Assembly (NCBI GenBank): GCA_943787745.1
Contig: CALSNJ010000002.1
Location: 818,125-882,124, forward strand
Direction of reading: 5' to 3'
Source: an uncultured Alphaproteobacteria bacterium
GTDB taxonomy: Bacteria; Pseudomonadota; Alphaproteobacteria; UBA6615
Length of the DNA: 64,000 nt
The position numbers and the translations under genes are program-made. Positions 4,416-32,620 of this stretch are shown here, piece after piece. How positions within the stretch are numbered: the first letter of the stretch is position 1; each line of letters begins with the position of its first letter. A model generated the notes under the pieces. That model had not been told where the DNA came from, searched no databases, and worked only from the letters and a program-made list of their open reading frames with translations.

Positions 4416-4491
4416 CGTCATGGCCGGACTTGATCCGGCCATCTCATCTCAGTTTGTGGGGGGATGCCCGGATCAAGTCCGGGCATGACGG
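4416..4491. repeat. REP-like palindrome pair, GGCCGGACTTGATCCGGCC family (family A)
   Basis: Two imperfect palindromes in opposite orientation: GGCCGGACTTGATCCGGCC flanked by GTCAT and ATC, then GCCCGGATCAAGTCCGGGC flanked by GATG and CATGAC. The same unit recurs at 7711-7928, 9237-9451 and 32523-32595 with compensating stem changes, as expected for an element conserved as a hairpin. Together with the next two repeats it fills the gap between the ABC operon and the ParB-like gene, which holds no credible gene. Confidence 0.85.
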
Positions 4492-7710: not shown

Positions 7711-7991
7711 CGTCATGCCCGGGCCTGACCCGGGCATCCCTTGCGCGAACCGATGATCATCGCGCTGAGATACGCGGATCAAGTCCGCGTATGACGAATT
7801 TGGTAACGCAGTATGGATTTCTCCTTCGTCATGGCCGGACTTGTTCCGGCCATCCACGTGGTCGATCCACGCGCAGCGGTCATTGGGGCCACCGGACGTG
7901 GATGCCCGCAACACGTGCGGGCATGACGATACCTGATGAGGCGCTATCCCCCACCTCACCCCGGCCCTCTCCTCGCGGGAGGAGAGGGTGT
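7711..7991. repeat. Cluster of REP-like palindromes (family A, two pairs) plus a CCCTCTCC...GGAGAGGG hairpin
   Basis: Four family A palindromes as two inverted pairs: CCCGGGCCTGACCCGGG with ACGCGGATCAAGTCCGCGT, then GGCCGGACTTGTTCCGGCC with GCCCGCAACACGTGCGGGC. A different hairpin, CCCTCTCCTCGCGGGAGGAGAGGG-type, follows at about 7965-7990. It fills the gap between the divergent RraA-like gene and mct; the mct start codon lies 18 bases after it. No gene is credible here. Confidence 0.85.
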
Positions 7992-9226: not shown

Positions 9227-9236
9227 AAACACATAC

Positions 9237-9451
9237 GTCATGCCCGGGCTTGACCCGGGCATCTCAGAACCGACACAAGGGAGATGCGCGGATCAAGTCC
9301 GCGCATGACGAGAATGGGGGAAAGGGCCGTATGCCTGCGAATCACTCCACCGTCATGCCCGCACTTGTTGCGGGCATCCACGTCCATCGGCACACTCAGC
9401 GACCGAACCGGACACAATGACGTGGATGGCCGGAACAAGTCCGGCCATGAC
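9237..9451. repeat. REP-like palindromes (family A, two inverted pairs)
   Basis: CCCGGGCTTGACCCGGG paired with GCGCGGATCAAGTCCGCGC (9237-9310), then GCCCGCACTTGTTGCGGGC paired with GGCCGGAACAAGTCCGGCC (9351-9451). They occupy the 260 bases between mct and mcd. The extended N-terminus of the ORF-track frame starting at 9284 is translated repeat, not protein. Confidence 0.85.
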
Positions 9452-11403: not shown

Positions 11404-12202
11404 CATCGTCGTTGTTGATTCGGTAACGAAGTTCGGCCCCGCCGATCTTGGTCGTGTGTCCATCGCCGCATCCCATGGTGGCGCGTATGCGGGGTATCTC
11501 GCGGCACGCGCAGGGGTCCGGGGCGTCATTCTGCACGACGCGGGGGTTGGCAAGGATCAGGCGGGGATCACCGCGCTGCCGTATCTCGATGAACTCGGCA
11601 TTGGTGGCGCAACAATTGACTACAAAAGCGCTCGTATCGGCGACGGCCGCTCCATGGCTGACAGCGGTATTGTGAGCCATGTAAATCAGGCGGCCAGCGC
11701 GGTTGGATGCAAGGTCGGTCAATCGGCAATGGACTGCGCGCACGCCATGCAGGCGATCCGTGTGTCGGGGGGGGAAGTCCCCGGCTATGACGAAGCTCGG
11801 TTTGTATTGCGCGACGCACAGGGCGGATCACAAGTCATCGGTTGTGATTCAACCTCCCTCGTGAAGCCTGAAGATGCGGGAAACATCGTGGTCACAGCCT
11901 CTCATGGTGACCTGCTGAAAGAATCCCCCAGCTGGGGTGATCGTCCCGATGTGCTTGCGGCTATCTTCAATGACGCCGGTTCGGCAAACCCGACCCGCCT
12001 CCCCGATCTGGACACCCGTGCCATTGCGGGCGCGACCGTCTCCGCCGACAGCGCGCGCATCGGAGACGCCCGCTCCACCTATGAGGACGGGATTATCTCT
12101 CATATCAACGAAACCGCCCGCGCCCGAGGCGCACGTATCCGAATGACATGTCGTGAGTTTGTTCAACAGATGATCGACAGCGCCCGCGAGAACAGTGCCT
12201 AG
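11390..12202 (+). CDS. Uncharacterised protein with two tandem homologous domains
   Basis: Not recognised. The 270 residues fall into two similar halves. Half one: DSVTKFGPADLGRVSIAASHGG...LHDAG...GGATIDYKSARIGDGRSMADSGIVSHVN. Half two: DSTSLVKPEDAGNIVVTASHGD...FNDAG...AGATVSADSARIGDARSTYEDGIISHIN. Shared motifs are ASHG, a D-A-G turn, SARIGD(G/A)RS and GI(V/I)SH(V/I)N. No signal peptide or membrane segment is seen, so it is probably cytoplasmic. The conserved His, Asp and Arg positions are enzyme-like. It is convergent with the E1 genes and overlaps them by four bases. Confidence 0.6.
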   Translation: MSQSDIVVVDSVTKFGPADLGRVSIAASHGGAYAGYLAARAGVRGVILHDAGVGKDQAGITALPYLDELGIGGATIDYKSARIGDGRSMADSGIVSHVNQAASAVGCKVGQSAMDCAHAMQAIRVSGGEVPGYDEARFVLRDAQGGSQVIGCDSTSLVKPEDAGNIVVTASHGDLLKESPSWGDRPDVLAAIFNDAGSANPTRLPDLDTRAIAGATVSADSARIGDARSTYEDGIISHINETARARGARIRMTCREFVQQMIDSARENSA

Positions 12203-13164
12203 GCCAGCATCGCCTTGACCCGTGCGGCAATCCGGTCAGCCTTGATCTTGTAAGCTTCTTCGAGCGGGATTGAGAACGGAATAGGGATGCGCTCTCCACC
12301 CAGCCGCGCAACAGGAACACCGAGTTCCTCGGCGACTTCAGCTGCAATTTCACCCCCGAACCCGCCAACACGCACAGCTTCGTGAACCACCAGAAGACGG
12401 CCGGTTTTGCCAACCGAGTTCATCACAGCATCACGATCCCAAGGCCAAAGCGTCCGAAGATCGATGACCTCAACCGAAACACCCTCCCCGGCAAGGCTCT
12501 CGGCAGCCTCTGCCGCAACGCCCACCTGAGCCGCCCAGCTGACGATGGTCAGGTCGCTGCCTTCACGAACAATGCGCGCGACGCCCAGCGGAGTTTCGGA
12601 CTGGTCATCCTCGTCAACCTCTCCAACAGCGCCCCAAAGCCCCTTGTGCTCCATATAGACGACCGGGTCATCGCAACGAATGGCTGCTTTCAGCAGCCCG
12701 CGATTCTCTGCCGGTGTTCCCGGCGTCACAACGACCAATCCGGGCACATGGGTGTACCAGGCTTCCGGCGACTGGGAATGCTGCGCGGCAATCCCGCCAC
12801 GTATCCCAATCGGCATGCGGGCCACCATGGGCACCCGTGCCTGCCCGCCAAACATGTAGCGCGCTTTCGCGGCCTGATTGACGAGTTCATCCACAGCACA
12901 CATGGCAAAATCTGAAAACCTCAACTCCGCAATCGGACGGGTACCGGCAAGTGCGGCACCAACCGCAGCCCCCATGATTGTCGATTCAGAAATCGGCGTG
13001 TCAACGATACGATCCTCGCCAAACTCGGCCTGAAGATCACTGTACTGGCCGGCCATACCTCCCTCGTAACCAAGATCCTCTCCAAGTGCCCATACTGTCG
13101 GGTCCCGGCGCATTTCTTCCTGCAGGCCCAACCGGGCCGCCTGGGCATAGGTCATTTCGCTCAT
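12199..13164 (-). CDS. 2-oxoacid dehydrogenase E1 beta subunit (transketolase-like)
   Basis: The 321-residue beta subunit of a ThDP-dependent 2-oxoacid (pyruvate, acetoin or branched-chain) dehydrogenase E1. Family blocks: MTYAQAARLGLQEEMRRDP, VWALGEDLGYEGG, DTPISESTIMGAAVGAALAG, HSQSPEAWYTHVPGLVVVTPGTP and the C-terminal ERIPIPFSIPLEEAYK. The start is ATG 13164, overlapping the alpha-subunit stop by four bases (ATGA), so the pair is translationally coupled. No E2 or E3 gene is near, so the intended complex is unknown. A related C-terminal fragment lies at 17442-17555. Confidence 0.82.
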   Translation of the reverse strand: MSEMTYAQAARLGLQEEMRRDPTVWALGEDLGYEGGMAGQYSDLQAEFGEDRIVDTPISESTIMGAAVGAALAGTRPIAELRFSDFAMCAVDELVNQAAKARYMFGGQARVPMVARMPIGIRGGIAAQHSQSPEAWYTHVPGLVVVTPGTPAENRGLLKAAIRCDDPVVYMEHKGLWGAVGEVDEDDQSETPLGVARIVREGSDLTIVSWAAQVGVAAEAAESLAGEGVSVEVIDLRTLWPWDRDAVMNSVGKTGRLLVVHEAVRVGGFGGEIAAEVAEELGVPVARLGGERIPIPFSIPLEEAYKIKADRIAARVKAMLA

Positions 13165-14165
13165 CGGGCAGCCTCCGGAACATTGGGTGCACCGACATCC
13201 TGAACGTCCGTGAATGCGAGGGACGGATGTGGCCAGGGCGCTTGTTTGGCGTCCTCCACGTAGCCCGCAATCTCGGCATCGACCTCCGCGCGCATCCGGT
13301 CGAGTTCGTCCTGCTTGAGACCGTTCTCGAGCAACCACGTTTCTGTCCGCGCCACAGGTTCGTTCTTGAGCGCTGCCTCGGCTTCGCCCGCGGGTCGATA
13401 GCCTGCATCATCATGGGCAAAATGGCCGCGCAGGCGATAGGTCATTGCCTGAATAAGCTGAGGACCCGAGCCGTTTCGAATTTCAGAAATGATCCGTGCA
13501 GCTGTACCATCAACTTCGAAGAGATCGTTCCCATCAATGGTGACAGCCGGCACATCGAAACTCTCGGCGCGCTTTGCAATTCCTTCGCCCGCAGTGACCA
13601 GACGGGTCGTCGTTGTTGCGGCGATCTGATTGTTCTCGCAAACGAACAGCACCGGCAATTCATACACCTTGGCCCAGTTTAGGGCCTCCATGAACGGGCC
13701 GCGGTTGATCCCGCCATCGCCAATAAAGTTTACAATAATCCGGTCCTGCTTGAGCAGTTTGATCGCCTGCGCAGCCCCGACAGACATGGTGCAGCCATCT
13801 GCGATCACACCATTTGCGCCCAGCATTCCCACGGAAAAGTCCGCGATATGCATGGAACCGCCCTTGCCGTTGCTGGTGCCGCCCTCTTTGCCAAACAATT
13901 CCAGCATCATCGCGCGCGGATGGGCGCCCTTGGCGATGGAATGCCCATGCCCCCGGTGATTGCTCATCAGGTAGTCATCGTCGCGAAGATTTTCGCAGAT
14001 ACCGACGGCAATGGATTCCTCGCCGATATACTGGTGCACCGAGCCGCGCACATTTCCGGCAAAGAAATTCTCACCCGCAGCCTCTTCAAAAGCGCGGATC
14101 ACCAGCATCTTGCGATACATCGCAATGACGCGGGCTGGTTCATTGACCAATGTCTCGTTGTTCAC
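13161..14165 (-). CDS. 2-oxoacid dehydrogenase E1 alpha subunit
   Basis: The 334-residue alpha subunit, partner of the downstream beta subunit. The ThDP-binding motif GDGGINRGPFMEALNWAKVYELPVLFVCENN is near residue 150; the N-terminal RAFEEAAGENFFAGNVRGSVHQYIGEESIAVG and NHRGHGHSIAKG are typical of AcoA/PdhA. I choose GTG 14165, which has a strong GGGGAGG site six bases before it; the ORF-track GTG 14192 has none. Acetoin dehydrogenase and pyruvate dehydrogenase are both possible. Absence of E2/E3 means the assignment stops at the class level. Confidence 0.82.
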   Translation of the reverse strand: MNNETLVNEPARVIAMYRKMLVIRAFEEAAGENFFAGNVRGSVHQYIGEESIAVGICENLRDDDYLMSNHRGHGHSIAKGAHPRAMMLELFGKEGGTSNGKGGSMHIADFSVGMLGANGVIADGCTMSVGAAQAIKLLKQDRIIVNFIGDGGINRGPFMEALNWAKVYELPVLFVCENNQIAATTTTRLVTAGEGIAKRAESFDVPAVTIDGNDLFEVDGTAARIISEIRNGSGPQLIQAMTYRLRGHFAHDDAGYRPAGEAEAALKNEPVARTETWLLENGLKQDELDRMRAEVDAEIAGYVEDAKQAPWPHPSLAFTDVQDVGAPNVPEAAR

Positions 14166-14264
14166 GTGTTCCTCCCCTAGACGCACGTCCACGGACGCAG
14201 GCAGCGAGTATCGCGTGCCAATGCGTCCGCGGTAAAGCGCAGAGGTGAACCGTCGCCCGGTGCG

Positions 14265-15490: not shown

Positions 15491-15599
15491 CTCACCATAC
15501 AGGACAACTGGCTTCCGCCACTGGTAGATGGCCACTTCGTAGCCTAGATTGCCCATAATCAAAAAAAATCATCAGACGAAGTGTAGCGGGGAAATTCGA

Positions 15600-17354
15600 A
15601 TGAGCGAAACGGCTGCCGACGGCGGTAACGTCAAGATCGAGATGAGTGGCGGCGAAGCCATTGCCGAGATGTTCAAACTGCACGATGTTGGACCGATGTT
15701 CGGCATGGCCGGTTTCCAGTTGCTTCCCTTTTATGATGCTGTTCGTGAGTTGGGCCTTCAGCACACATTGATCAATGACGAACGCAGCGGCGCGTTCATG
15801 GCCGACGCCTGGGCGCGTGTCACAGGACGTCCGGGCGTATGCGACGCAACACTCGGACCGGGCGCGACCAACCTGCTGACGTCTCTCACGGAATCTCTGA
15901 ATGCGGGTATTCCCCTGATCGCCATGATCGGCGACAGCAATCGGGAACATGCCTGGAAGAACATGACTCAGGAGACCCGGCAGGTCGAAATGCTGCGCCC
16001 AGCCGTCAAGGAAGTGATCCGGGTCGAAGTGGGCACACGCATCCCCGAACACATTCGCTACGCCTACACGATCGCGACGACCGGGCGTCCGGGACCGGTA
16101 TTGCTCGATGTGCCGGAAGATATCTGTCATGGCGTATTTGAGTTCTCCGCCGATGATTTGTTCGCAGACCCAACGACCACCTATGCACCATCACGACGAT
16201 CCCGACCTGCGCGGGACGATGTGGAACGCGCCGCGAAATTGCTCGCCGAGGCCAAACGTCCCGTTATTCTTGCGGGCGGTGGCATACATATTTCCGGAGC
16301 TCAGGACGAACTGACGGCCTTTGCCGAAGAGCAATCCATCCCCGTCGGACACACGCTTTCGGGCAAAGGCTCGATCGCTTGCGTGCATGACCTCTCACTT
16401 GGTTTGTTCGGCCGATATTCCCGCACCGCCAACGACGTTTTGGACTCCGCCGACGCGATTTTCGTCGTCGGTTGCAAGCTCGGGGAAATCGCCACCAAGC
16501 GTTACACGATTCCGCGACTTGGCATTCCGATCATCCATCTTGACATCATGGCGGCCGAGATCGGCCGCTGGGCGCGCACAGATATCGCGCTTTGCGGCGA
16601 TGCGCGCGAAGGCATCGCGGATCTGCGCGAAGCGCTTTCTGATGGCGCCGAAAAGCGCCGCGCCGGACGTACCGACTTCATCACGGAAATCTCCGCCGGA
16701 AAAGCCAAATGGCGCGCTGAAGTTGAGGAGCGGCTGACGTCAGATGAAGTCCCGGTCAACATGGCCCGCATGGTCCATGAGCTGAACAACGTTCTGCCCG
16801 AGGATGCGATCCTTGTGGCTGATGGCGGCTTTGCTGCCCATTGGACAGGCTTGATCTATGACACCAAAAAAGCCGGACGTGGCTACATTCCGGATCGGGG
16901 TATGGCCTCTATCGGTTATGGCGTTTCCGGCGGCATCGGTGCCCAGCTTGCTGCACCGGATCGACCGGTGTTCACGCTCACCGGCGATGGTGGATTGAAC
17001 ATGACACTCGGCGATCTGGAGACCGCCGCACGGCTCAAGGTTCCGGTTACTGTCCTCGTGGTGAACAACGCCGCATCGGGCTACATCAAGGCACTCCAGC
17101 ACGCGATGTTCGGCGGGCGCTATCAGTCAGCCGACCTGTCAGAGCTGAACTACGCCAACATCGCCGAAAATCTTGGTTGTCGCGGCATTCGGGTCGAACA
17201 CCCCGACGAGTTGGCACCGGCGTTCCGCACAGCGCTGGAAAACCGTGACAAGCCAAATGTGATCGACATTGTTGTGACACGTGATGCCGGTAAGATGCTT
17301 CCTGGCGTCGACAACCGCACGGCTCCAATCAAGAAGGGCGACCGGATCGCATAA
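15600..17354 (+). CDS. Thiamine-diphosphate-dependent enzyme (acetolactate synthase / 2-oxoacid decarboxylase-like)
   Basis: A 584-residue three-domain ThDP enzyme. The N-terminal Pyr domain has DERSGAFMADAWARVTG with the catalytic Glu and GPGATNLLTSLTES; the central domain starts near residue 195; the C-terminal PP domain has the cofactor motif GDGGLNMTLGDLETAARLKVPVTVLVVNN. Start ATG 15600. The usual His preceding the Glu in acetolactate synthases and decarboxylases is replaced (INDERS), so the reaction may differ from valine-pathway acetolactate synthesis. No regulatory small subunit (ilvH) is nearby, arguing for a catabolic role. Stop is followed by AAGGAGAC and a degraded frame. Confidence 0.78.
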   Translation: MSETAADGGNVKIEMSGGEAIAEMFKLHDVGPMFGMAGFQLLPFYDAVRELGLQHTLINDERSGAFMADAWARVTGRPGVCDATLGPGATNLLTSLTESLNAGIPLIAMIGDSNREHAWKNMTQETRQVEMLRPAVKEVIRVEVGTRIPEHIRYAYTIATTGRPGPVLLDVPEDICHGVFEFSADDLFADPTTTYAPSRRSRPARDDVERAAKLLAEAKRPVILAGGGIHISGAQDELTAFAEEQSIPVGHTLSGKGSIACVHDLSLGLFGRYSRTANDVLDSADAIFVVGCKLGEIATKRYTIPRLGIPIIHLDIMAAEIGRWARTDIALCGDAREGIADLREALSDGAEKRRAGRTDFITEISAGKAKWRAEVEERLTSDEVPVNMARMVHELNNVLPEDAILVADGGFAAHWTGLIYDTKKAGRGYIPDRGMASIGYGVSGGIGAQLAAPDRPVFTLTGDGGLNMTLGDLETAARLKVPVTVLVVNNAASGYIKALQHAMFGGRYQSADLSELNYANIAENLGCRGIRVEHPDELAPAFRTALENRDKPNVIDIVVTRDAGKMLPGVDNRTAPIKKGDRIA

Positions 17355-17365
17355 GGAGACGCAGC

Positions 17366-17555
17366 ATGAGCGAAACCACAACGCGTCAGAACAAGCCCGC
17401 GCATATCTTCGAACTGTACAACCGACCTGAAAACCTATCCAAGACGAATTGGCGCACCGCGTATGCCCGTCCCTTATGCTGAACCCATGGAAAACGAATT
17501 CCGGGTCACAACCGAACGCGTGGTCTCAAAGGCCCGCGAAGTTCCAGACGCCTGA
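17366..17555 (+). pseudogene. Short ORF plus frameshifted E1-beta C-terminal relic
   Basis: A good ribosome site (AAGGAGAC) precedes ATG 17366, which encodes only 38 residues (MSETTTRQNKPAHIFELYN...) before TGA 17480. From about 17442 another frame reads RRIGAPRMPVPYAEPMENEF and RVTTERVVSKAREVPDA, ending at 17555. That stretch aligns with the C-terminus of the E1 beta protein at 12199-13164 (GGERIPIPFSIPLEEAYKIK...). The simplest reading is a gene that lost its middle by deletion and shifted frame, in the same strand as the ThDP and FAH-family genes. The 38-residue N-terminal piece is not recognised. Confidence 0.45.
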
Positions 17556-17570
17556 ACAGGAAAACAGATT

Positions 17571-18425
17571 ATGAAATTGATTACTTTTGATGCCGGGGAC
17601 GGCGCACATGTGGGTCTCGTTACCGATGCCGGTGTTGTCGATCTGACCCAGCATGCAGGTGTAACCTCCCTGCGCGGCCTGATCGCCGACGGCAAGGTCG
17701 CTGACATGGCCGCCCATGGGAACGCAGCCGCCGACCACGAACTTGATGACGTGACCTTTCTGCCTGTCATCCCGGACCCCGAGCATATCTGGTGTGTCGG
17801 CGTGAACTATATGGACCATCTGCAGGAAGCCATCGATGCCGGTCTGCCCCGTTCGAAATCCGAGTTCCCGATGATCTTTGGTCGCTATGCCGACACGATG
17901 GTTGGCCACAAGCAGAACCTGATGAAGGCGCCGATCGTCCACAAACTCGACTATGAGTGCGAACTCGCCGTGATTATCGGCAAAGGTGGACGCTACATCG
18001 CCAAGGAAGACGCCTTGTCCCATATCGCCGGATATTCCTGTTTCAACGAGGGCAGCGCACGCGACTGGCAGTACCACACCGCGCAAGTGGTCCCGGGCAA
18101 GAACTTCGCCAAGACGGGCGGCTTCGGCCCCTGGATGGTCACGGCGGATGAAATCCCCGACCCACAGGTCCTCGACATCTCGACTGTCCTCAACGGTCAG
18201 ACGATGCAAAGCGCCAACACCAAGGACATGATCTTTGATGTCGCGACGGTGATTTCCTATGTCTCAAACATCTCCGAGCTGCAGCCCGGTGATGTGATCG
18301 CCTCGGGCACACCCTCGGGCGTAGGTCAGTCCCGTGAGCCGCAGGTCTTTATGCAACCGGGCGACACCTGCGAAATCCATATCGAGAATGTTGGCGTTCT
18401 GGTCAACGAGATCGCCGAGGGATAA
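17571..18425 (+). CDS. Fumarylacetoacetate hydrolase (FAH) family protein
   Basis: The 284-residue FAH-superfamily enzyme has an N-terminal beta domain (MKLITFDAGDGAHVGLV) and the catalytic core. Metal and active-site blocks: IWCVGVNYMDHLQE, MIFGRYADTMVGH, DYECELAVIIGKGGRYI (metal Glu residues), GYSCFNEGSARDWQ, TGGFGPWMVTADEI and GDVIASGTPSGVG. Family members include acylpyruvate hydrolases, 2-oxo-hept-3-ene-dioate hydratases and oxaloacetate decarboxylases. It probably follows the ThDP enzyme in one transcript (216-base gap with the relic between). Substrate unknown. Confidence 0.83.
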   Translation: MKLITFDAGDGAHVGLVTDAGVVDLTQHAGVTSLRGLIADGKVADMAAHGNAAADHELDDVTFLPVIPDPEHIWCVGVNYMDHLQEAIDAGLPRSKSEFPMIFGRYADTMVGHKQNLMKAPIVHKLDYECELAVIIGKGGRYIAKEDALSHIAGYSCFNEGSARDWQYHTAQVVPGKNFAKTGGFGPWMVTADEIPDPQVLDISTVLNGQTMQSANTKDMIFDVATVISYVSNISELQPGDVIASGTPSGVGQSREPQVFMQPGDTCEIHIENVGVLVNEIAEG

Positions 18426-18508: not shown

Positions 18509-19093
18509 ATGCCAAAGAATATCCTGATCGTTCAGGGGCACCCCGACCCTGCAGGCGGGCATTTCTGTAATGCTCTGGAATCTGCATATGCCAATGGCGC
18601 GCGGCATGCAGGTCATGACGTCAGCATCATCCACGCTTCGACCTCCGATTTTTCCATTCTGCGGACCCAAGAAGAGTTCGACACCGGAAAACTGACCGCA
18701 GACATCAAAACCGCGCAGGACTCCATCCAGTGGGCAGACCATCTGGTTATTATCTATCCGCTGTGGCTTGGAACCATGCCGGCCCTGCTCAAGGGTTTTT
18801 TCGAGCAGGTTTTGCGTCCCAATTTCGGATTTCTAATCAAGGAAGACGGGCGCTGGGAAAAACGCCTCAAGGGACGCACGGCGCGCGTTGTAATCACCAT
18901 GGGCATGCCGGCATTTGTTTACCGATGGTACTTCGGCGCGCATTCACTACGAAGTCTTGAGCGCAACATCCTGGGGTTCTGCGGCATTGCCCCCATTCGC
19001 ACGTCGCTGATCGGCATGGTGGACGCACCGGCCCCAAAAGGCCGATTGCGCTGGCTCGCAAGAATGGAAAAATTTGGTTCCCGCGGTGACTAA
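18509..19093 (+). CDS. Flavodoxin-fold NAD(P)H quinone reductase-like protein
   Basis: A 194-residue protein of the flavodoxin-like NAD(P)H dehydrogenase family (KefF/MdaB/NQO1 type). N-terminal phosphate loop region ILIVQGHPDPAGGHFCNAL binds FMN or FAD; IYPLWLGTMPALLKGFFEQVL is the conserved mid-block; ITMGMPAFVYRWYFG follows. Such enzymes reduce quinones or supply reduced flavin. The start codon follows a hairpin that covers its ribosome site. It is convergent with the EamA gene at 19102. Confidence 0.78.
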   Translation: MPKNILIVQGHPDPAGGHFCNALESAYANGARHAGHDVSIIHASTSDFSILRTQEEFDTGKLTADIKTAQDSIQWADHLVIIYPLWLGTMPALLKGFFEQVLRPNFGFLIKEDGRWEKRLKGRTARVVITMGMPAFVYRWYFGAHSLRSLERNILGFCGIAPIRTSLIGMVDAPAPKGRLRWLARMEKFGSRGD

Positions 19094-19101
19094 AATGACG
19101 T

Positions 19102-20013
19102 CTAGCGCCGCCCGAACAAACGCCCATCGATCAGAGCCAGGCCAAACGCGATAAAGGCCATGCCAATGGCCTGCTCGATGGTCAGGGTCTCTTCCAGTAT
19201 GAAGATACCCAGAAGGAGCGCACTGACCGGAGCCATGAAGTTGACAAGCATCAGGTTGGTTGCGCCCGCCGAAGCCAGAACCCGATAGTAAATAAGATAG
19301 GCGACCCCGGTTGACCCAAGCGCCAATCCGGCGACCGCGCCCATACCCGCCAAGCTCGGCAATGCGAGTGTCCAGGGTCGGTCAAAAATCAGAACGAATG
19401 GCAGCAGCAGAACCACAGCCATGGTCACCTGACCCGCAGCGATAGAAATCGGCGACATATCCTTGCGGCCGAAGCGCCGGCCGAAGACTGCAGCAATCGA
19501 ATACGAGACCGCACCGCCCAGTACGGCCAGCTGCGCAAAAACATTGGCCCCAAGGTCACGCAGAAACTCCGGACCGATCAGGACGGCAACACCAAACACA
19601 CCGGACACCACACCCGCCCCCTTGAGAGGCGTGAAGCCTTCGTCATCGGTGAAGAAATGCGCTGTGATCACCGCAAAAAGTGGCGTCATGGCAATCAGGA
19701 TCGAAGCAAGCCCGCTCGTGATCTGGATTTGACCCCATGCGATCAGCGAAAACGGCAGCGCGGAATTGAACACCGCCATGATCGTCAGGACCACCCAAAG
19801 GCCCCAGCCGCGCGGGAACTCCTTCCGCAGGATCAGCACGATGCTCCACAAGAACAGTGATGCACCGCCCACCCGCAGAATCATGATGGTGAACGGCGGC
19901 AGGTCACGCAGCGCAACCTCGATGAGGAAAAAGGCGCCGCCCCACAAGACCGACAGAATCATTAACAAACCCCACTCAAAAGGGGTCATTCGCAAACTTT
20001 CAGACCTGGCCAT
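19102..20013 (-). CDS. EamA-type DMT transporter (first of pair)
   Basis: The 303-residue inner-membrane protein has the two EamA repeats, about ten hydrophobic segments, and the family pattern WGGAFFLIEVALRDLPPFTI at the N-terminus and a second repeat ending LIDGRLFGRR. Drug/metabolite transporters mostly export amino acids or metabolites. ATG 20013 is preferred over GTG 20019 because it aligns with the paralogue's start (LRMTPFEW / LRMTPVEW). It is the last gene of an operon racemase-racemase-EamA-EamA; the upstream stop is six bases before the start. Confidence 0.83.
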   Translation of the reverse strand: MARSESLRMTPFEWGLLMILSVLWGGAFFLIEVALRDLPPFTIMILRVGGASLFLWSIVLILRKEFPRGWGLWVVLTIMAVFNSALPFSLIAWGQIQITSGLASILIAMTPLFAVITAHFFTDDEGFTPLKGAGVVSGVFGVAVLIGPEFLRDLGANVFAQLAVLGGAVSYSIAAVFGRRFGRKDMSPISIAAGQVTMAVVLLLPFVLIFDRPWTLALPSLAGMGAVAGLALGSTGVAYLIYYRVLASAGATNLMLVNFMAPVSALLLGIFILEETLTIEQAIGMAFIAFGLALIDGRLFGRR

Positions 20014-20018
20014 ACGCA

Positions 20019-20942
20019 CTACCCTGTCAGCTGAAACCGGCTTAACAATCGACCGTCAATCGTCACAAGCCCGACCACAATACACGCCAAACCGATCACT
20101 TGCTCGATTGTCAGCGTTTCTCCCAGTACGAATATACCGAGCAGCAAAGCACTGACCGGCACCAGAAAGTTCACCAGAAGAATATTGATCGCACCCGCAT
20201 TGGCCAGAATGCGGAAATAGATCAGATAGGCAAAGGTCGTCGAAACAACGGCAAGACTTATGATGGCCCCCCAGACAGGGAGGCTCGGATTTGCCAGGGT
20301 CCATGGCTGATCGACAATCAGCGTAAACGGCACCAGCAGAACTGTTGCCATCGTCATCTGACCGGTCGCCACGAACAGGGGCGGCACGCCAAATGTCGCG
20401 AACCGCCGTCCATAGATCGCCGATCCGGCATAACAGATCGCAGCCGCCAGAACCGAAAGCTGTCCGATCAAATCGCTGCCAATATCCCCCAGCAGCTCGG
20501 GGCCCAGAAGAAACACCACGCCGATCAAGCCGGCGAGAATCCCGATTATCTTGCCCGGCGTCAGTCCCTCGTCCCGCGTCCAGTAGTGTGCGCCCACCAC
20601 GGCAAAAAGCGGCGAGGTCGCGATCAGGATCGAGGCCAGTCCACCGGTGATATGGATCTGCCCCCAGGCGATGAGAAAGAAGGGAATCGCCGAGTTGATT
20701 GCGGCCATGATGCCCAGTGCAACCCAGACGTCCCGGCTGCGCGGAATGGTGATGCCGCTCGCGAACACGACAATCCAGAGGATGATTGATGCCAGCCCGA
20801 CCCGAAACAAAATGATGGAGAGTGGCGGAAGTTCCAGAATCGCGATTTCATTGAAAAAGAACGTGCAGCCCCAAAAGCCACCAAGAATGAACAGCAAGAT
20901 CCACTCCACGGGGGTCATGCGCAGGCTGCTCGTCTTTAACAT
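20019..20942 (-). CDS. EamA-type DMT transporter (second of pair)
   Basis: A 307-residue paralogue of the 19102 gene with the same two-repeat layout (FWGCTFFFNEIAILELPPLSI; SALLLGIFVLGETLTIEQVIG). It starts five bases after the racemase-like gene. Tandem EamA pairs could act as separate exporters or as a heterodimer. The link to racemase-like proteins suggests transport of an amino acid or hydroxy/dicarboxylic acid, which is inference. Confidence 0.83.
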   Translation of the reverse strand: MLKTSSLRMTPVEWILLFILGGFWGCTFFFNEIAILELPPLSIILFRVGLASIILWIVVFASGITIPRSRDVWVALGIMAAINSAIPFFLIAWGQIHITGGLASILIATSPLFAVVGAHYWTRDEGLTPGKIIGILAGLIGVVFLLGPELLGDIGSDLIGQLSVLAAAICYAGSAIYGRRFATFGVPPLFVATGQMTMATVLLVPFTLIVDQPWTLANPSLPVWGAIISLAVVSTTFAYLIYFRILANAGAINILLVNFLVPVSALLLGIFVLGETLTIEQVIGLACIVVGLVTIDGRLLSRFQLTG

Positions 20943-20947
20943 TCAGA

Positions 20948-21622
20948 CTAGCCCGCCAGCTCCGCTTTGAGCTTGGCGACCGCCGTATAGGGTGCCGTGA
21001 AGACCGGACGCCCTTCCATCGGCGTAATCTTACGCGGCACCAGCCCCATGGAGAACTGCCCCAGCATCAAGCTATCGCAGTCCGTCATGGCCGCAGCGGA
21101 TGCCACCACCAGATCGTCATGAGCGGGGCGATCACCCTCCAGCAGGATTTCAAACGCGCCGTCCGCCACATCACTGATCAGGTCATAGGTCAGATTGTGG
21201 GCGGCGGCATAGCTGACGATATCGTCGGTCAGGCATTTGATAGTCCCCGGCGTGGTCGCAAGGATGCCCAGCCGGTTGCCCTGACCAAAGGCGGCTTCGA
21301 TCATCGCCTCGTAAGATGTCAGCACCGGGATATCCATCCCCTCGCGACCGGCCTCGACCAGACGGCCGAATACCGAGCCACAGAAAATAACGGCATCCGC
21401 GCCCGTGTTCTGGCTGTAACGCAGCAGCCGCGCAATCCGGTCGTAGCATTCCTCGGGCATGACATCGGGCACCGTCATGTCGTCATTGATGAAGTCCGCA
21501 TAAAGCGACTGATCCAGCACACAGACCGGCTCAGCCTCAGGCCAGAGTTCTTCAAACGCGGCGCGCACGGTCGGAAACGCGACTTCCGTGGGCGAAACAA
21601 CGCCGATGCGTGGTTTGGCCAT
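20948..21622 (-). CDS. Asp/Glu/hydantoin racemase superfamily protein (first of pair)
   Basis: The 224-residue two-lobed racemase-fold protein. The two catalytic Cys regions of the superfamily are visible: VIFCGSVFGRLVE near residue 80 and MTDCDSLMLGQFSM near residue 185. N-terminus RIGVVSPTEVAFPTV. Family members include aspartate/glutamate racemases, maleate isomerases, arylmalonate decarboxylases and hydantoin racemases. It lies five bases from its paralogue in an operon with two EamA transporters. Substrate cannot be told. Confidence 0.75.
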   Translation of the reverse strand: MAKPRIGVVSPTEVAFPTVRAAFEELWPEAEPVCVLDQSLYADFINDDMTVPDVMPEECYDRIARLLRYSQNTGADAVIFCGSVFGRLVEAGREGMDIPVLTSYEAMIEAAFGQGNRLGILATTPGTIKCLTDDIVSYAAAHNLTYDLISDVADGAFEILLEGDRPAHDDLVVASAAAMTDCDSLMLGQFSMGLVPRKITPMEGRPVFTAPYTAVAKLKAELAG

Positions 21623-21627
21623 GATCT

Positions 21628-22284
21628 CTAGTTCCCCAACAGACGTTTAAGCTTTCGCACCGAGGTGTGCGGGGCCGTCAGCACCGGGCGGCCGGGCATA
21701 TCGGTGAACTGCTTGACTGCACTGGTCATCGAGAACTGCCCGAGCATCAGACAGTCGCAGTCGGTCATCTTGTCGGCAGCGGCAGCCACCATCTGATCAT
21801 GGGTTTCCACATCGCCGGCCAGAATGATCGGCCGCGCGGCGTCTTCCACATGCTGAACCAGAGTGTAGGGCTTACCGTGTTCTTTCGAGTACCGATCAAT
21901 ATCGTCGAGCAGGCACTGCAGCGAACCCGACACAGTGGTCAGGATGCCAAACCGTGAGCCGGCGGCGAAGGCTTCCTCAATCATAGATTCCTGAGCGCTG
22001 AGCACCGGCACGGAGAGATTCTCACGCACTGCTTCAACGACGCGCCCAAACACAGACCCGCAGAACACAATGCCGTCCGCGCCGGTGTCCTGACTGTATT
22101 GCAGCAGCACCGCCATCCGCTCATAGGTCTCATCCGTGACACCCTTCCCGCCGCCGTAATCCGCATAAAGTGACTCATCAAGCAGGGTAATCGCCTGAGC
22201 CTCGGGCCAGACATCTGCAAAAGCTTCTGCGACGGCATCCATGGCATTGTCCATGGGTGTCACAACCCCGATACGTACTGGCAT
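21628..22284 (-). CDS. Asp/Glu/hydantoin racemase superfamily protein (second of pair)
   Basis: The 218-residue paralogue of the 20948 gene with the same Cys blocks (IVFCGSVFGRVVE and MTDCDCLMLGQFSM; the second has an extra Cys). First gene of the operon. ATG 22284 is preferred to GTG 22293 because the GGGGA ribosome site sits nine bases before the ATG but directly against the GTG. It is divergent from the thiolase at 22448. Confidence 0.75.
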   Translation of the reverse strand: MPVRIGVVTPMDNAMDAVAEAFADVWPEAQAITLLDESLYADYGGGKGVTDETYERMAVLLQYSQDTGADGIVFCGSVFGRVVEAVRENLSVPVLSAQESMIEEAFAAGSRFGILTTVSGSLQCLLDDIDRYSKEHGKPYTLVQHVEDAARPIILAGDVETHDQMVAAAADKMTDCDCLMLGQFSMTSAVKQFTDMPGRPVLTAPHTSVRKLKRLLGN

Positions 22285-22447
22285 TCGTTTCACTCCCCAA
22301 AAAGAACTGTCCCCACTTTAGGCTCTCAGAACAAACTGCGTAAATCAGCCGATAGATCGTCTTACCAAGCGAGCAAACCCATCAGCAAACTGGTGTGAGC
22401 CCCTCAGACAGGTCAAAATCGAATATCTCGCAGCAAGGATCAAAGAC

Positions 22448-23686
22448 ATGACGGATATCTACATCGTTGGCATTGGCATGACCGCTCTCGGGAAGTTCCC
22501 CGACAAGTCGGTCAAGGAACTCACCAATGAAGCCGTGTCCACCGCGCTGACCGATGCCGGCGCAACCATGGGCGATGTTGAGGCCGCGTGGTTCTCCAAC
22601 ACCCGTCAGGGGATGATGGAAGGTCAGAATACCGTGCGTGGCCAATGCGCGCTGCGCTCCATGGGGTTCGAGTCCATTCCCATCGTGAATGTCGAAAACG
22701 CCTGCTGCTCATCCTCCACAGGGCTCAATCAGGCCTATGCCTATCTCAAAGCTGGCATGGGAGGCGTGGCGCTGGTCGCGGGCAGCGAAAAGATGTTCTA
22801 CCCGGAAAAGCGCGACCTCATGTTTCAGGCCTTTCGCGGCGGCTGGGATGTGCACACCCAGGAAGAAACCGAAGCCCGGCTGCTCGCGCTCGGTGAAGGT
22901 CTGGAACTGCCCCCCGAAGCGCTCGAAGACACCGGCGAACACAGCGTCTTCATGGATATCTATGCCTCGCTGGCCCGCCAGCACATGAAGAATTTCGGCA
23001 CCACCCAGCGCCAGATCGCGGCGGCGGCTGCCAAAAGCCACTTCCACTCGACCATGAACCCTCTGGCCCAGTACCAGAAGGATTTCAGCGTCGATGACGT
23101 CCTCAACGACCGGCTGATTTCATGGCCCCTCACCCGTGCCATGTGTGCGCCGTTGTCCGACGGTGCCGGGGCGCTTGTGCTCGCCAGCGCGGACGCACTC
23201 GATCGCTTCGACAAGTCACGGGCGATAAAAGTCATGGGCACAGCATTGGTGAGCGGTTCGGACCGCGACCCGAACGACTTCGACAACCATCTCGGCATGG
23301 TCGCCGCCAACCGCGCCTACAATATGGCCGGTGTGTCACCCGAAGATGTCGATGTGGCCGAAGTTCACGATGCGTCCGCCTATGCCGAAATCGTGCAGGT
23401 CGAAAACATGGGCTTCTGCGCCCGTGGCGATGGCGGCGCGCTGGCCGAAAGCGGCGAAACCAAGCTCGGCGGGCGCATCCCGGTGAACACTTCGGGCGGC
23501 CTGCTGTCAAAGGGTCACCCCATTGGTGCGACCGGCGCGATGCAGATCCAAGAACTCGTCACCCAGTTGCGTGGCGAAGCCGGCAAACGTCAGGTCGAGG
23601 GCGCGCGGATCGCAGCCGCGGAAAACGGCGGCGGTTTCTTCGGCATCGAGGAAGCGGCGACTGTCGTGACAGTGCTGGGGCGATAG
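22448..23686 (+). CDS. Thiolase-family protein (SCP-x / acetyl-CoA acetyltransferase-like)
   Basis: A 412-residue thiolase-superfamily enzyme of the SCP-x type, shorter in the insertion loops than biosynthetic thiolase. The nucleophilic Cys region is VENACCSSSTGLNQAY near residue 85, the His region is VAEVHDASAYAEI near residue 300 (HDA replaces the usual HEA/HDC), and the C-terminal GHPIGATGAMQI near residue 360 is intact. It probably acts in thiolytic cleavage of a 3-oxoacyl-CoA or in a non-decarboxylating variant. Single gene; no partner DUF35/OB-fold protein is seen beside it, although many SCP-x thiolases have one. Confidence 0.8.
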   Translation: MTDIYIVGIGMTALGKFPDKSVKELTNEAVSTALTDAGATMGDVEAAWFSNTRQGMMEGQNTVRGQCALRSMGFESIPIVNVENACCSSSTGLNQAYAYLKAGMGGVALVAGSEKMFYPEKRDLMFQAFRGGWDVHTQEETEARLLALGEGLELPPEALEDTGEHSVFMDIYASLARQHMKNFGTTQRQIAAAAAKSHFHSTMNPLAQYQKDFSVDDVLNDRLISWPLTRAMCAPLSDGAGALVLASADALDRFDKSRAIKVMGTALVSGSDRDPNDFDNHLGMVAANRAYNMAGVSPEDVDVAEVHDASAYAEIVQVENMGFCARGDGGALAESGETKLGGRIPVNTSGGLLSKGHPIGATGAMQIQELVTQLRGEAGKRQVEGARIAAAENGGGFFGIEEAATVVTVLGR

Positions 23687-25452: not shown

Positions 25453-26427
25453 ATGGCCCTCGAACCCGCGCGAATTGCCGATCCCAGCGAAATCCCCGTG
25501 GTTGATATCAGCGCGCTGATCGACGGCGACGATGCCGCCCGCAAGGCCGTCGCGGCGCAGATCGTGCACGCAGCCGAGAACACCGGGTTCTTCTATATCG
25601 TCGAACATGGTGTCCCGCGCGAACTCATGGACGGCGTGTTCGACACCGCTGCAGACTTCTTCGCCACGCCCGACAACAACAAGCTCGGCATCGGGCTGGA
25701 GACCTCGACTTGCTTCCGGGGCTTCCTGCCGCTCGACTCAAAAGGCTCGGACCCGACCCAACGCAACTATCTCGAAGCCTTTCAGATGGGCGAGGAACAC
25801 GGCGCCGACAATTCCTATGAGGAAATGCTCTACGGCGCCAACCAGTGGCCAAGCCAGCCTGCGACCCTGCGCGACACGATGATGGCCTATCACCGGGCGA
25901 TGGACACGCTGGCCGACCGGCTGCAGCGCGCCTTTGCCATCGGCATCGACTTTCCCGAGGATTACTTCCTGCGGTTCTACCGCAAGCCGCTCAACCAGCT
26001 CCGCCTGCTGCACTACCCGCCACGTCCGCCCGAGCTCGACGAGCGCGTACTCGGCGCGCGGGTACACACCGACACCGGTGCCTTCACGATCCTGCTTCAG
26101 GACCAGATCGGCGGGCTGGAGGTCCAAAACGCCGATGGCGAGTGGGTCGCTGCCACCCCCATGGAAGGCGCGTTTGTGGTGAATGTCGGCGACATGCTGC
26201 AGAACTGGACCAACGGGCGCTTCATCTCGATCAAGCACCGGGTCATCAACCGGTCCGGCAAGGAACGCTATTCGGTGCCGTATTTCCTGAACCCGGACCT
26301 GACCGCACTCGTGGAGCCGCTGCCGGAATTCGTCAGCGACGACAACCCGCCCCGCTTCGAGCCCGTCCATGTGGGCGAGTTCCTGTCCAAACGTTTTGAT
26401 TCCATCTGGCCCCGCATGGCCACCTGA
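25453..26427 (+). CDS. 2-oxoglutarate/Fe(II) oxygenase, isopenicillin-N-synthase family
   Basis: A 324-residue non-haem iron oxygenase. The N-terminal DIOX_N block reads IPVVDISALIDGDD and NTGFFYIVEHGVP. The catalytic double-stranded helix has the iron triad HTDTGAFTILLQD (His, Asp) and FISIKHRVIN (His), and the 2OG-binding RYSVPYFL follows. Family members hydroxylate or oxidise small molecules, including uracil/thymine, ethylene and antibiotic precursors. Likely in one operon with DinB, and 22 bases before the frameshifted cinA. Substrate unknown. Confidence 0.83.
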   Translation: MALEPARIADPSEIPVVDISALIDGDDAARKAVAAQIVHAAENTGFFYIVEHGVPRELMDGVFDTAADFFATPDNNKLGIGLETSTCFRGFLPLDSKGSDPTQRNYLEAFQMGEEHGADNSYEEMLYGANQWPSQPATLRDTMMAYHRAMDTLADRLQRAFAIGIDFPEDYFLRFYRKPLNQLRLLHYPPRPPELDERVLGARVHTDTGAFTILLQDQIGGLEVQNADGEWVAATPMEGAFVVNVGDMLQNWTNGRFISIKHRVINRSGKERYSVPYFLNPDLTALVEPLPEFVSDDNPPRFEPVHVGEFLSKRFDSIWPRMAT

Positions 26428-26449
26428 TCCCTTTTTTCGGAGTATCCGC

Positions 26450-27673
26450 ATGCGTTGTGAAGTTGTTGCCGTCGGCACGGAGTTGCTGCTGGGTCAGATC
26501 GTGGACACCAATTCGTCGTGGATTGGTGAACAGTTGGCGCTGGCCGGGATCGATTCCCATTTTCAGGTGAAGGTCGGCGACAATTTCGACCGCATGGTGT
26601 TCTGCATTCGGCAGGCGCTCGAACGCAGTGACGCGGTGATCTGCTGCGGCGGGATTGGGGCCGACCCAGGACGACATCACCCGGGACGTCATCGCCCATA
26701 TCATGGGTGTCGAGATGGTGCGCGATGACAGATTGCCGCCCATATCCGTGACATCTTCGAAGGCCGTGGCCGGGTGATGCCCGAGAACAATTTGCGGCAG
26801 GCTGACGTGCCCGTGGGTGCCACAACGATCCCGCAGATGCCGGGCACGGCCCCGGGGCTGGTCTGTCCCCTGACCGTCGATGGGGTGGACAAGGTGATCT
26901 ACGCCGTCCCCGGTGTGCCCCATGAAATGCGCGAGATGATGCTGGGTACGGTGCTCGATGATCTGCGCCGACGCGGCGGGGATGCGTCCGTGATCCGCTC
27001 GCGGGTTCTGCGCACCTGGGGATATGGCGAATCTGCCATCGCCGAAACTCTTGCCCACAGGGTCGATGCGCTCGATGAAAGCGGCCATGCGACCATCGCG
27101 TTTCAGGCCAGCGGGATCGAGGGCATTAAAGTCCGGATCACCACCAAGGCCCCCGATGAGGCCGCCGCCGAAGCGATCATCGCGGCAGAGGAAACCCTCA
27201 TCCGCGAACTTCTGGGCGATTACATCTTCGGGATCGATGACGAAAGCATGGAAACTGTCGTGCTCAAGATGCTGCGCGGGCGCGGTCTGAGTTTTGCGGC
27301 GGCCGAAAACCTGACCGGTGGCATTCTGTCGAGCCGCATGACGGCGCTCGATCCCGGCATGGACGTCTTCCGTGGTGCGACCATCGCGCCGCACGGGACC
27401 AACGAGAACGCACTCACCCTTGCCGGCGAAGACCGGGCGCTTGCTGCAGCCTCCCATGCGCGTGAGATGATCGGAACCGATATCGGGATTGCCGCACTGG
27501 CGCCACCCGAGGGTGAAGATCACCCGCCGGGAACCGTGTTTGTGGCCGTGGTATTGCCGGACTATGCCGAAGCCAAGACGGTCGCCCTGCCCGGCGTGCT
27601 GTCGCGGATGCGCAGCTATGCGGTGATCACCGCGCTCGACCTGCTCCGCAAGCGCCTCTCCGAAACCAGCTGA
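26450..27673 (+). pseudogene. cinA: CinA-family protein, double frameshift and degenerate C-terminal active site
   Basis: From ATG 26450 the frame reads MRCEVVAVGTELLLGQIVDTNSSWIGEQLALAGID, the molybdopterin-binding (MoCF) domain of CinA. At the GGGG run 26657-26660 an extra base shifts it: the other frame continues GPTQDDITRDVIAHIMGVEMVRDD. Near 26724-26730 a missing base restores the first frame: QIAAHIRDIFEGRGRVMPENN and on to 27673. In the continuous frame a TGA occurs at 26726. The C-terminal NMN deamidase domain reads AAAENLTGG where active PncC/CinA proteins have AESCTGG, so the catalytic Ser is absent. Either a sequencing/assembly artefact or real decay. Confidence 0.75.
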
Positions 27674-32522: not shown

Positions 32523-32595
32523 CGTCATGCACGGGCTTGACCCGTGCATCTCCGGCACCCGAGCATGGGATGCCCGGATCAAGTCCGGGCATGAC
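32523..32595. repeat. REP-like palindrome pair (family A)
   Basis: GCACGGGCTTGACCCGTGC and GCCCGGATCAAGTCCGGGC in inverted order with compensatory stem changes relative to 4416-4491. Confidence 0.85.
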
Positions 32596-32620
32596 GGATT
32601 AAAATTTTGCACCAGACTGA

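Follow-up and report, generated by a model that had tools for sequence, protein, structure and literature searches.

Enzymes of the Asp/Glu-racemase superfamily (PF01177) include the glutamate racemase MurI, the aspartate racemase 1jfl and the allantoin racemase KpAllR (3qvj). The L-Asp/Glu racemase YgeA of E. coli (5ell/5hqt) has an atypical first-cysteine site, in which Thr83 comes after Cys82, and retains its second catalytic cysteine (Cys197). In KpAllR the catalytic cysteines are Cys79 and Cys184 (PMC12661438). The arylmalonate decarboxylase of Bordetella bronchiseptica (AMDase), characterized by the motifs GAxxVxLMGTSLSF and DALLISCGxL, carries a glycine at the position of the first cysteine and depends on Cys188 as its sole proton donor (PMC4996985).

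Two proteins that share the two-domain fold, the size and the Pfam profile of the PF01177 racemases, here called RacA and RacB, are encoded in the window, that is, the whole stretch of 64,000 nucleotides that was analysed, which belongs to a marine alphaproteobacterial genome. They differ from these racemases by having Gly and Gln in place of both catalytic cysteines, and their identity to them is just 12-20%. The genes are part of the following operon:

21628-22293, minus strand: RacA, operon gene 1, 221 aa, PF01177, Asp/Glu-racemase fold by Pfam, AF2 and Foldseek
20948-21622, minus strand: RacB, operon gene 2, 224 aa, PF01177
20019-20942, minus strand: EamA1, 307 aa, DMT-superfamily permease
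19102-20019, minus strand: EamA2, 305 aa, DMT-superfamily permease

The ORF positions give a head-to-tail order RacA, RacB, EamA1, EamA2 with gaps of 5, 5 and -1 bases, and both members of each pair are related, with 52% identity between RacA and RacB (E 2e-79) and 57% between EamA1 and EamA2 (E 1e-117). The tightly packed four-gene order and the two paralogue pairs that a preliminary description of this DNA had reported are thus confirmed. In Pfam, RacA and RacB reach 63.3 and 60.6 bits for Asp_Glu_race, with a curated cut-off of 31, and EamA1 and EamA2 reach 129 and 124 bits for EamA, also above the curated cut-off and with two EamA stretches each. No named racemase family of NCBIfam scored above its cut-off for the Rac proteins, and neither permease reached an NCBIfam equivalog of known substrate, the best score being 92 bits for 2A78, whose cut-off is 230. 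The RacA ORF starts with a GTG at 22293, and the downstream ATG at 22284 (MPVRIG...), with which the range given in the preliminary description ends, is the likely true start, judging from several relatives that begin at the equivalent ATG. Scans for promoters and terminators gave signals at chance level.

Fold and active-site positions of RacA and RacB

The AF2 model of RacA has a pLDDT of 92.3, and nearly all of the 50 PDB matches listed by Foldseek are racemases of glutamate, aspartate, hydantoin or allantoin, with identities of 12-20%. At fold level, the Pfam profiles of both proteins, together with the predicted structure of RacA and its Foldseek matches, assign the pair to the Asp/Glu-racemase superfamily. 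Searches of the PDB by phmmer with single Rac proteins and with EamA1 gave no match, and an alignment profile of the Rac family was required for aligning Rac to the solved racemases. The positions of interest are:

22057-22059, minus strand: RacA Gly79 codon, canonical catalytic position of the first cysteine (Cys1), by alignment
21736-21738, minus strand: RacA Gln186 codon, canonical catalytic position of the second cysteine (Cys2), by alignment
21751-21753, minus strand: RacA Cys181 codon, the extra Cys of TDCDC, a non-catalytic position
21377-21379, minus strand: RacB Gly82 codon, canonical Cys1 position, by alignment
21056-21058, minus strand: RacB Gln189 codon, canonical Cys2 position, by alignment

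Residues at these sites were counted in 20 aligned RacA and RacB proteins (9 RacA, 11 RacB) and in 33 more distant relatives. Instead of the catalytic cysteines, all 20 Rac proteins have Gly at the Cys1 site and Gln at the Cys2 site. When the family profile is aligned with solved racemases, C82 of 1jfl, C83 of 2eq5 and T83 of 5hqt fall onto RacA Gly79, and the second cysteine of 2eq5 (LGC) falls onto Gln186. Both superfamily catalytic cysteines, which maleate isomerase has at the same two positions, are therefore absent from RacA and RacB, and the racemising step proposed in the preliminary description is not supported. A cysteine does stand beside the first site: Cys78 precedes Gly79 in RacA, with T, V or A at that position in other RacA proteins, and Cys81 of RacB, directly before Gly82, is kept in 11 of 11 RacB sequences and might still reach the active site. 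The resulting Cys-Gly of RacB resembles the first-cysteine site of YgeA, from which both Rac proteins differ in lacking the second cysteine.

The extra cysteine that distinguishes the TDCDC of RacA from the TDCDS of RacB is real, but its suggested role as a specificity determinant is not supported. The residue varies among orthologues (C in eight of nine RacA and V in the other; S in ten of 11 RacB and C in the other) and lies five residues before the Cys2 site. Cys181 was also considered as a catalytic residue and rejected.

The AMDase motifs can be aligned to RacA without gaps, which places AMDase G74 on G79 and C188 on Q186. Besides Gly at the first site, AMDase has the motif GAxx[VI]x[LF]xG[TS] in common with RacA and RacB (PMC4996985). 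There are two differences: the proton donor of AMDase is replaced by Gln, and the position of its dioxyanion-hole residue S76 is occupied by Val in the Rac proteins. Outside the host family, the closest sequence relatives are uncharacterised proteobacterial proteins of the 'aspartate/glutamate racemase family', which have Gln or His at the second site and, unlike RacA and RacB, mostly keep Cys at the first. Of the 33 distant relatives counted, 30 keep Cys at the first site and three have Gly; at the second, 27 have Gln and six have His. As aligned, no sampled member of the clade has the second cysteine, and the RacA/RacB branch and three near relatives lack the first as well.

Across the 20 RacA and RacB proteins 52 positions are invariant, which argues for a retained function. 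The polar ones include D39, S41, Y43, D45, R59, Y66, S80, E87, R90, E102, R114 and D131, followed by D166, D180, Q186, S188, T206 and K214. Among solved structures we found none whose centre is Gly/Gln. Neither did we find a published description of a cysteine-free member of the Asp/Glu-racemase family, which is weak evidence given the incomplete coverage of the literature.

Recurrence of the operon and its neighbourhood

Gene order was surveyed in 24 genomes of the order, all from one family. Recurrence in relatives had been set beforehand as a test, and the order does recur. Its full form RacA-RacB-EamA1-EamA2 is present in the window, in G005 (same genus) and in G009 (genus g5); a shorter and commoner form, RacA-RacB-EamA1 without EamA2, is present in six more genomes (G001, G002, G004, G015, G019 and G021). 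The locus of G003 is interrupted by a contig end, and G022, also at the end of a contig, has EamA1 next to a fragment of RacB. EamA1 follows RacB in every locus of genera g1 and g5 that extends that far, and an orthologue of the operon's EamA2 was seen in G005 and G009 only. In genus g2 (G006, G014 and G018) RacB stands alone at the site, and in g7 (G011) RacA does, in both cases with no adjacent EamA and with the TPP/E1 genes still next door. The operon is modular, and the doubling of EamA is not a fixed component of it.

In a tree of 51 proteins, RacA and RacB form two supported sister clades, each of them spread over several genera, which indicates that the duplication predates those genera; the singletons of g2 and g7 would then have lost one copy. 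In a tree of 24 EamA proteins, EamA1 (11 rows) is separate from EamA2 (three rows, two genera), and the simplest reading of this tree is that EamA2 is an old copy which most relatives have lost.

The spacer between RacA and RacB is longer in g5, G003 and G005; these longer spacers were checked for a hidden element, and most of them contain a dispersed palindromic repeat. In the window this repeat occurs at 4416-4490, 7711-7796, 9236-9310 and 32523-32596, and consists of CGTCATnnnCGGGCTTGACCCG and, about 75 bases further, its inverted copy (eight half-sites for 0.01 expected). Related copies lie in the RacA-RacB spacers of L042, L046, L048 and L038.

The operon is flanked by the following genes:

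15549-17354, plus strand: TPP-dependent enzyme, acetolactate-synthase-like, likely start near 15603; convergent neighbour operon
17571-18425, plus strand: FAH-family hydrolase/decarboxylase, same operon as the TPP enzyme
18509-19093: flavodoxin-fold gene, convergent with EamA2, downstream of the FAH and TPP genes
22448-23686, plus strand: thiolase/SCP-x-like gene, divergent from RacA

The TPP protein has its matches among acetolactate-synthase-like enzymes, and the FAH protein among hydrolases/decarboxylases of the FAH family. Orthologues of the TPP enzyme (77-100% identity) are present in 19 genomes of the order, 16 of which have RacA and/or RacB (G022 as fragments only); in the other three (G013, G017 and G020) the contig stops beside the TPP or FAH gene. 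Among the genomes of the order, neither RacA nor RacB was found without that TPP orthologue. The TPP/FAH operon is a steadier partner of the Rac pair than EamA is. Several loci have an extra E1-alpha/E1-beta pair beside the TPP gene (checked by Pfam in L034 and L043, and visible in L041). In several relatives such a pair lies between the TPP and FAH genes; the corresponding stretch of the window (17355-17570) is without it, and another E1 pair lies at 12199-14192.

Further flanking genes are conserved as well, namely the thiolase, YhbQ, DinB and CinA; in all loci of g1 and g5 that extend to it, the thiolase gene diverges from RacA. The CinA-like gene of the window (26369-27673) is seemingly interrupted by an in-frame stop and by about 25-30 codons that are read in a different frame, and is continuous in L034; two compensating indels or assembly errors appear to be the cause.

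The uncharacterised relatives outside the host family are single copies in their loci and have no EamA neighbour in the loci inspected. Distant relatives stand beside otnK/otnC tetronate genes with dehydrogenase and uptake genes, beside RraA-like and isopropylmalate-dehydrogenase-like genes, beside DctA, beside malonyl-CoA synthase/decarboxylase genes, beside amidohydrolases, and beside Ldh_2 dehydrogenase or CoA-transferase genes. These contexts mostly belong to small-organic-acid catabolism. One distant relative adjoins hydantoinase and FAH genes, which calls for caution with a non-racemase reading. A third, distant Rac homologue of the Cys/Gln type, from another clade, is encoded in the same genome as the window (L035; G000:C2:678572-679222), adjoining genes for a short-chain dehydrogenase and for 3-oxoacid CoA-transferase subunits. 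The relatives L147, L150 and L157 are annotated as 'arylsulfatase' or 'aspartate/glutamate racemase family protein' despite Gln or His at the second site.

Possible roles of the Rac pair

The loss of both racemase cysteines suggests that RacA and RacB probably carry out another chemistry on small carboxylic acids. With a probability of roughly 0.5, we think that they are an ancient pair of Asp/Glu-racemase fold which, with one or two EamA permeases, handles a small carboxylic acid of the neighbouring TPP/FAH pathway and needs no cofactor to do so. Given the absent cysteines, the two proteins would not be two-base racemases; the oxyanion-hole architecture of the fold would be used for cofactor-free action on a small oxo-, hydroxy- or di-carboxylic acid, with decarboxylation, tautomerisation/isomerisation or lyase chemistry as candidate reactions. 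Two related substrates or two successive steps might be the reason for having two Rac copies, and EamA1, sometimes joined by EamA2, may import or export either the substrate or an overflow product.

The preliminary description had instead proposed that two EamA transporters are coupled to a pair of racemases or isomerases, either acting on different stereoisomers or joined in a heterodimer, with each step duplicated. The Pfam family and the fold fit such a circuit, the operon order recurs, and both Rac paralogues are kept together in g1 and g5; we nevertheless consider it improbable, since both catalytic positions are replaced in 20 of 20 proteins and the extra cysteine is not conserved. Moreover, EamA2 is absent from most relatives, no EamA lies beside Rac in g2, in g7 or in the outside contexts inspected, and the single Rac genes at this same site, RacA in g7 and RacB in g2, speak against a heterodimer being obligate. 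The stereoisomer circuit is thus mostly unsupported. Similarly doubtful, in our view, is a role for the two Rac proteins as pseudoenzymes, non-catalytic or regulatory, binding a carboxylate as ligand and modulating the permease or TPP enzyme next to them: the missing cysteines and the constant linkage to the TPP operon would suit this role, but 52 invariant positions, many of them polar, and the mostly catabolic operons of the wider Cys/Gln clade do not.

It is also unlikely, in our opinion, that the linkage of Rac-EamA with TPP-FAH reflects gene order kept by descent only, the Rac and EamA proteins having an unrelated task such as detoxification or export of a metabolite. All linked genomes come from one bacterial family, in which kinship by descent could hold neighbours together, and unrelated flanking genes are likewise conserved; yet thiolase, DinB and CinA were undetected near the g2 and g7 loci, where Rac still adjoins the TPP/E1 genes.

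Within the preferred reading of a cofactor-free pair acting on an acid of the TPP/FAH pathway, we propose more tentatively that RacA and RacB represent a class of cysteine-free enzymes built on the Asp/Glu-racemase fold, whose Gly/Gln centre would have arisen stepwise, by change of the second cysteine to Gln or His throughout the related proteobacterial clade and then of the first to Gly. Such enzymes may perform decarboxylation, tautomerisation or lyase chemistry on the carboxylic acid.

The label 'aspartate/glutamate racemase family', which is often given by profile alone, probably misleads for this clade, because the sampled members lack the second catalytic cysteine and the RacA/RacB branch lacks both. 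What is of interest here is the cysteine-free active site, a modest novelty inside a known superfamily; if its chemistry were new, the fold would support cofactor-free catalysis without a thiol.
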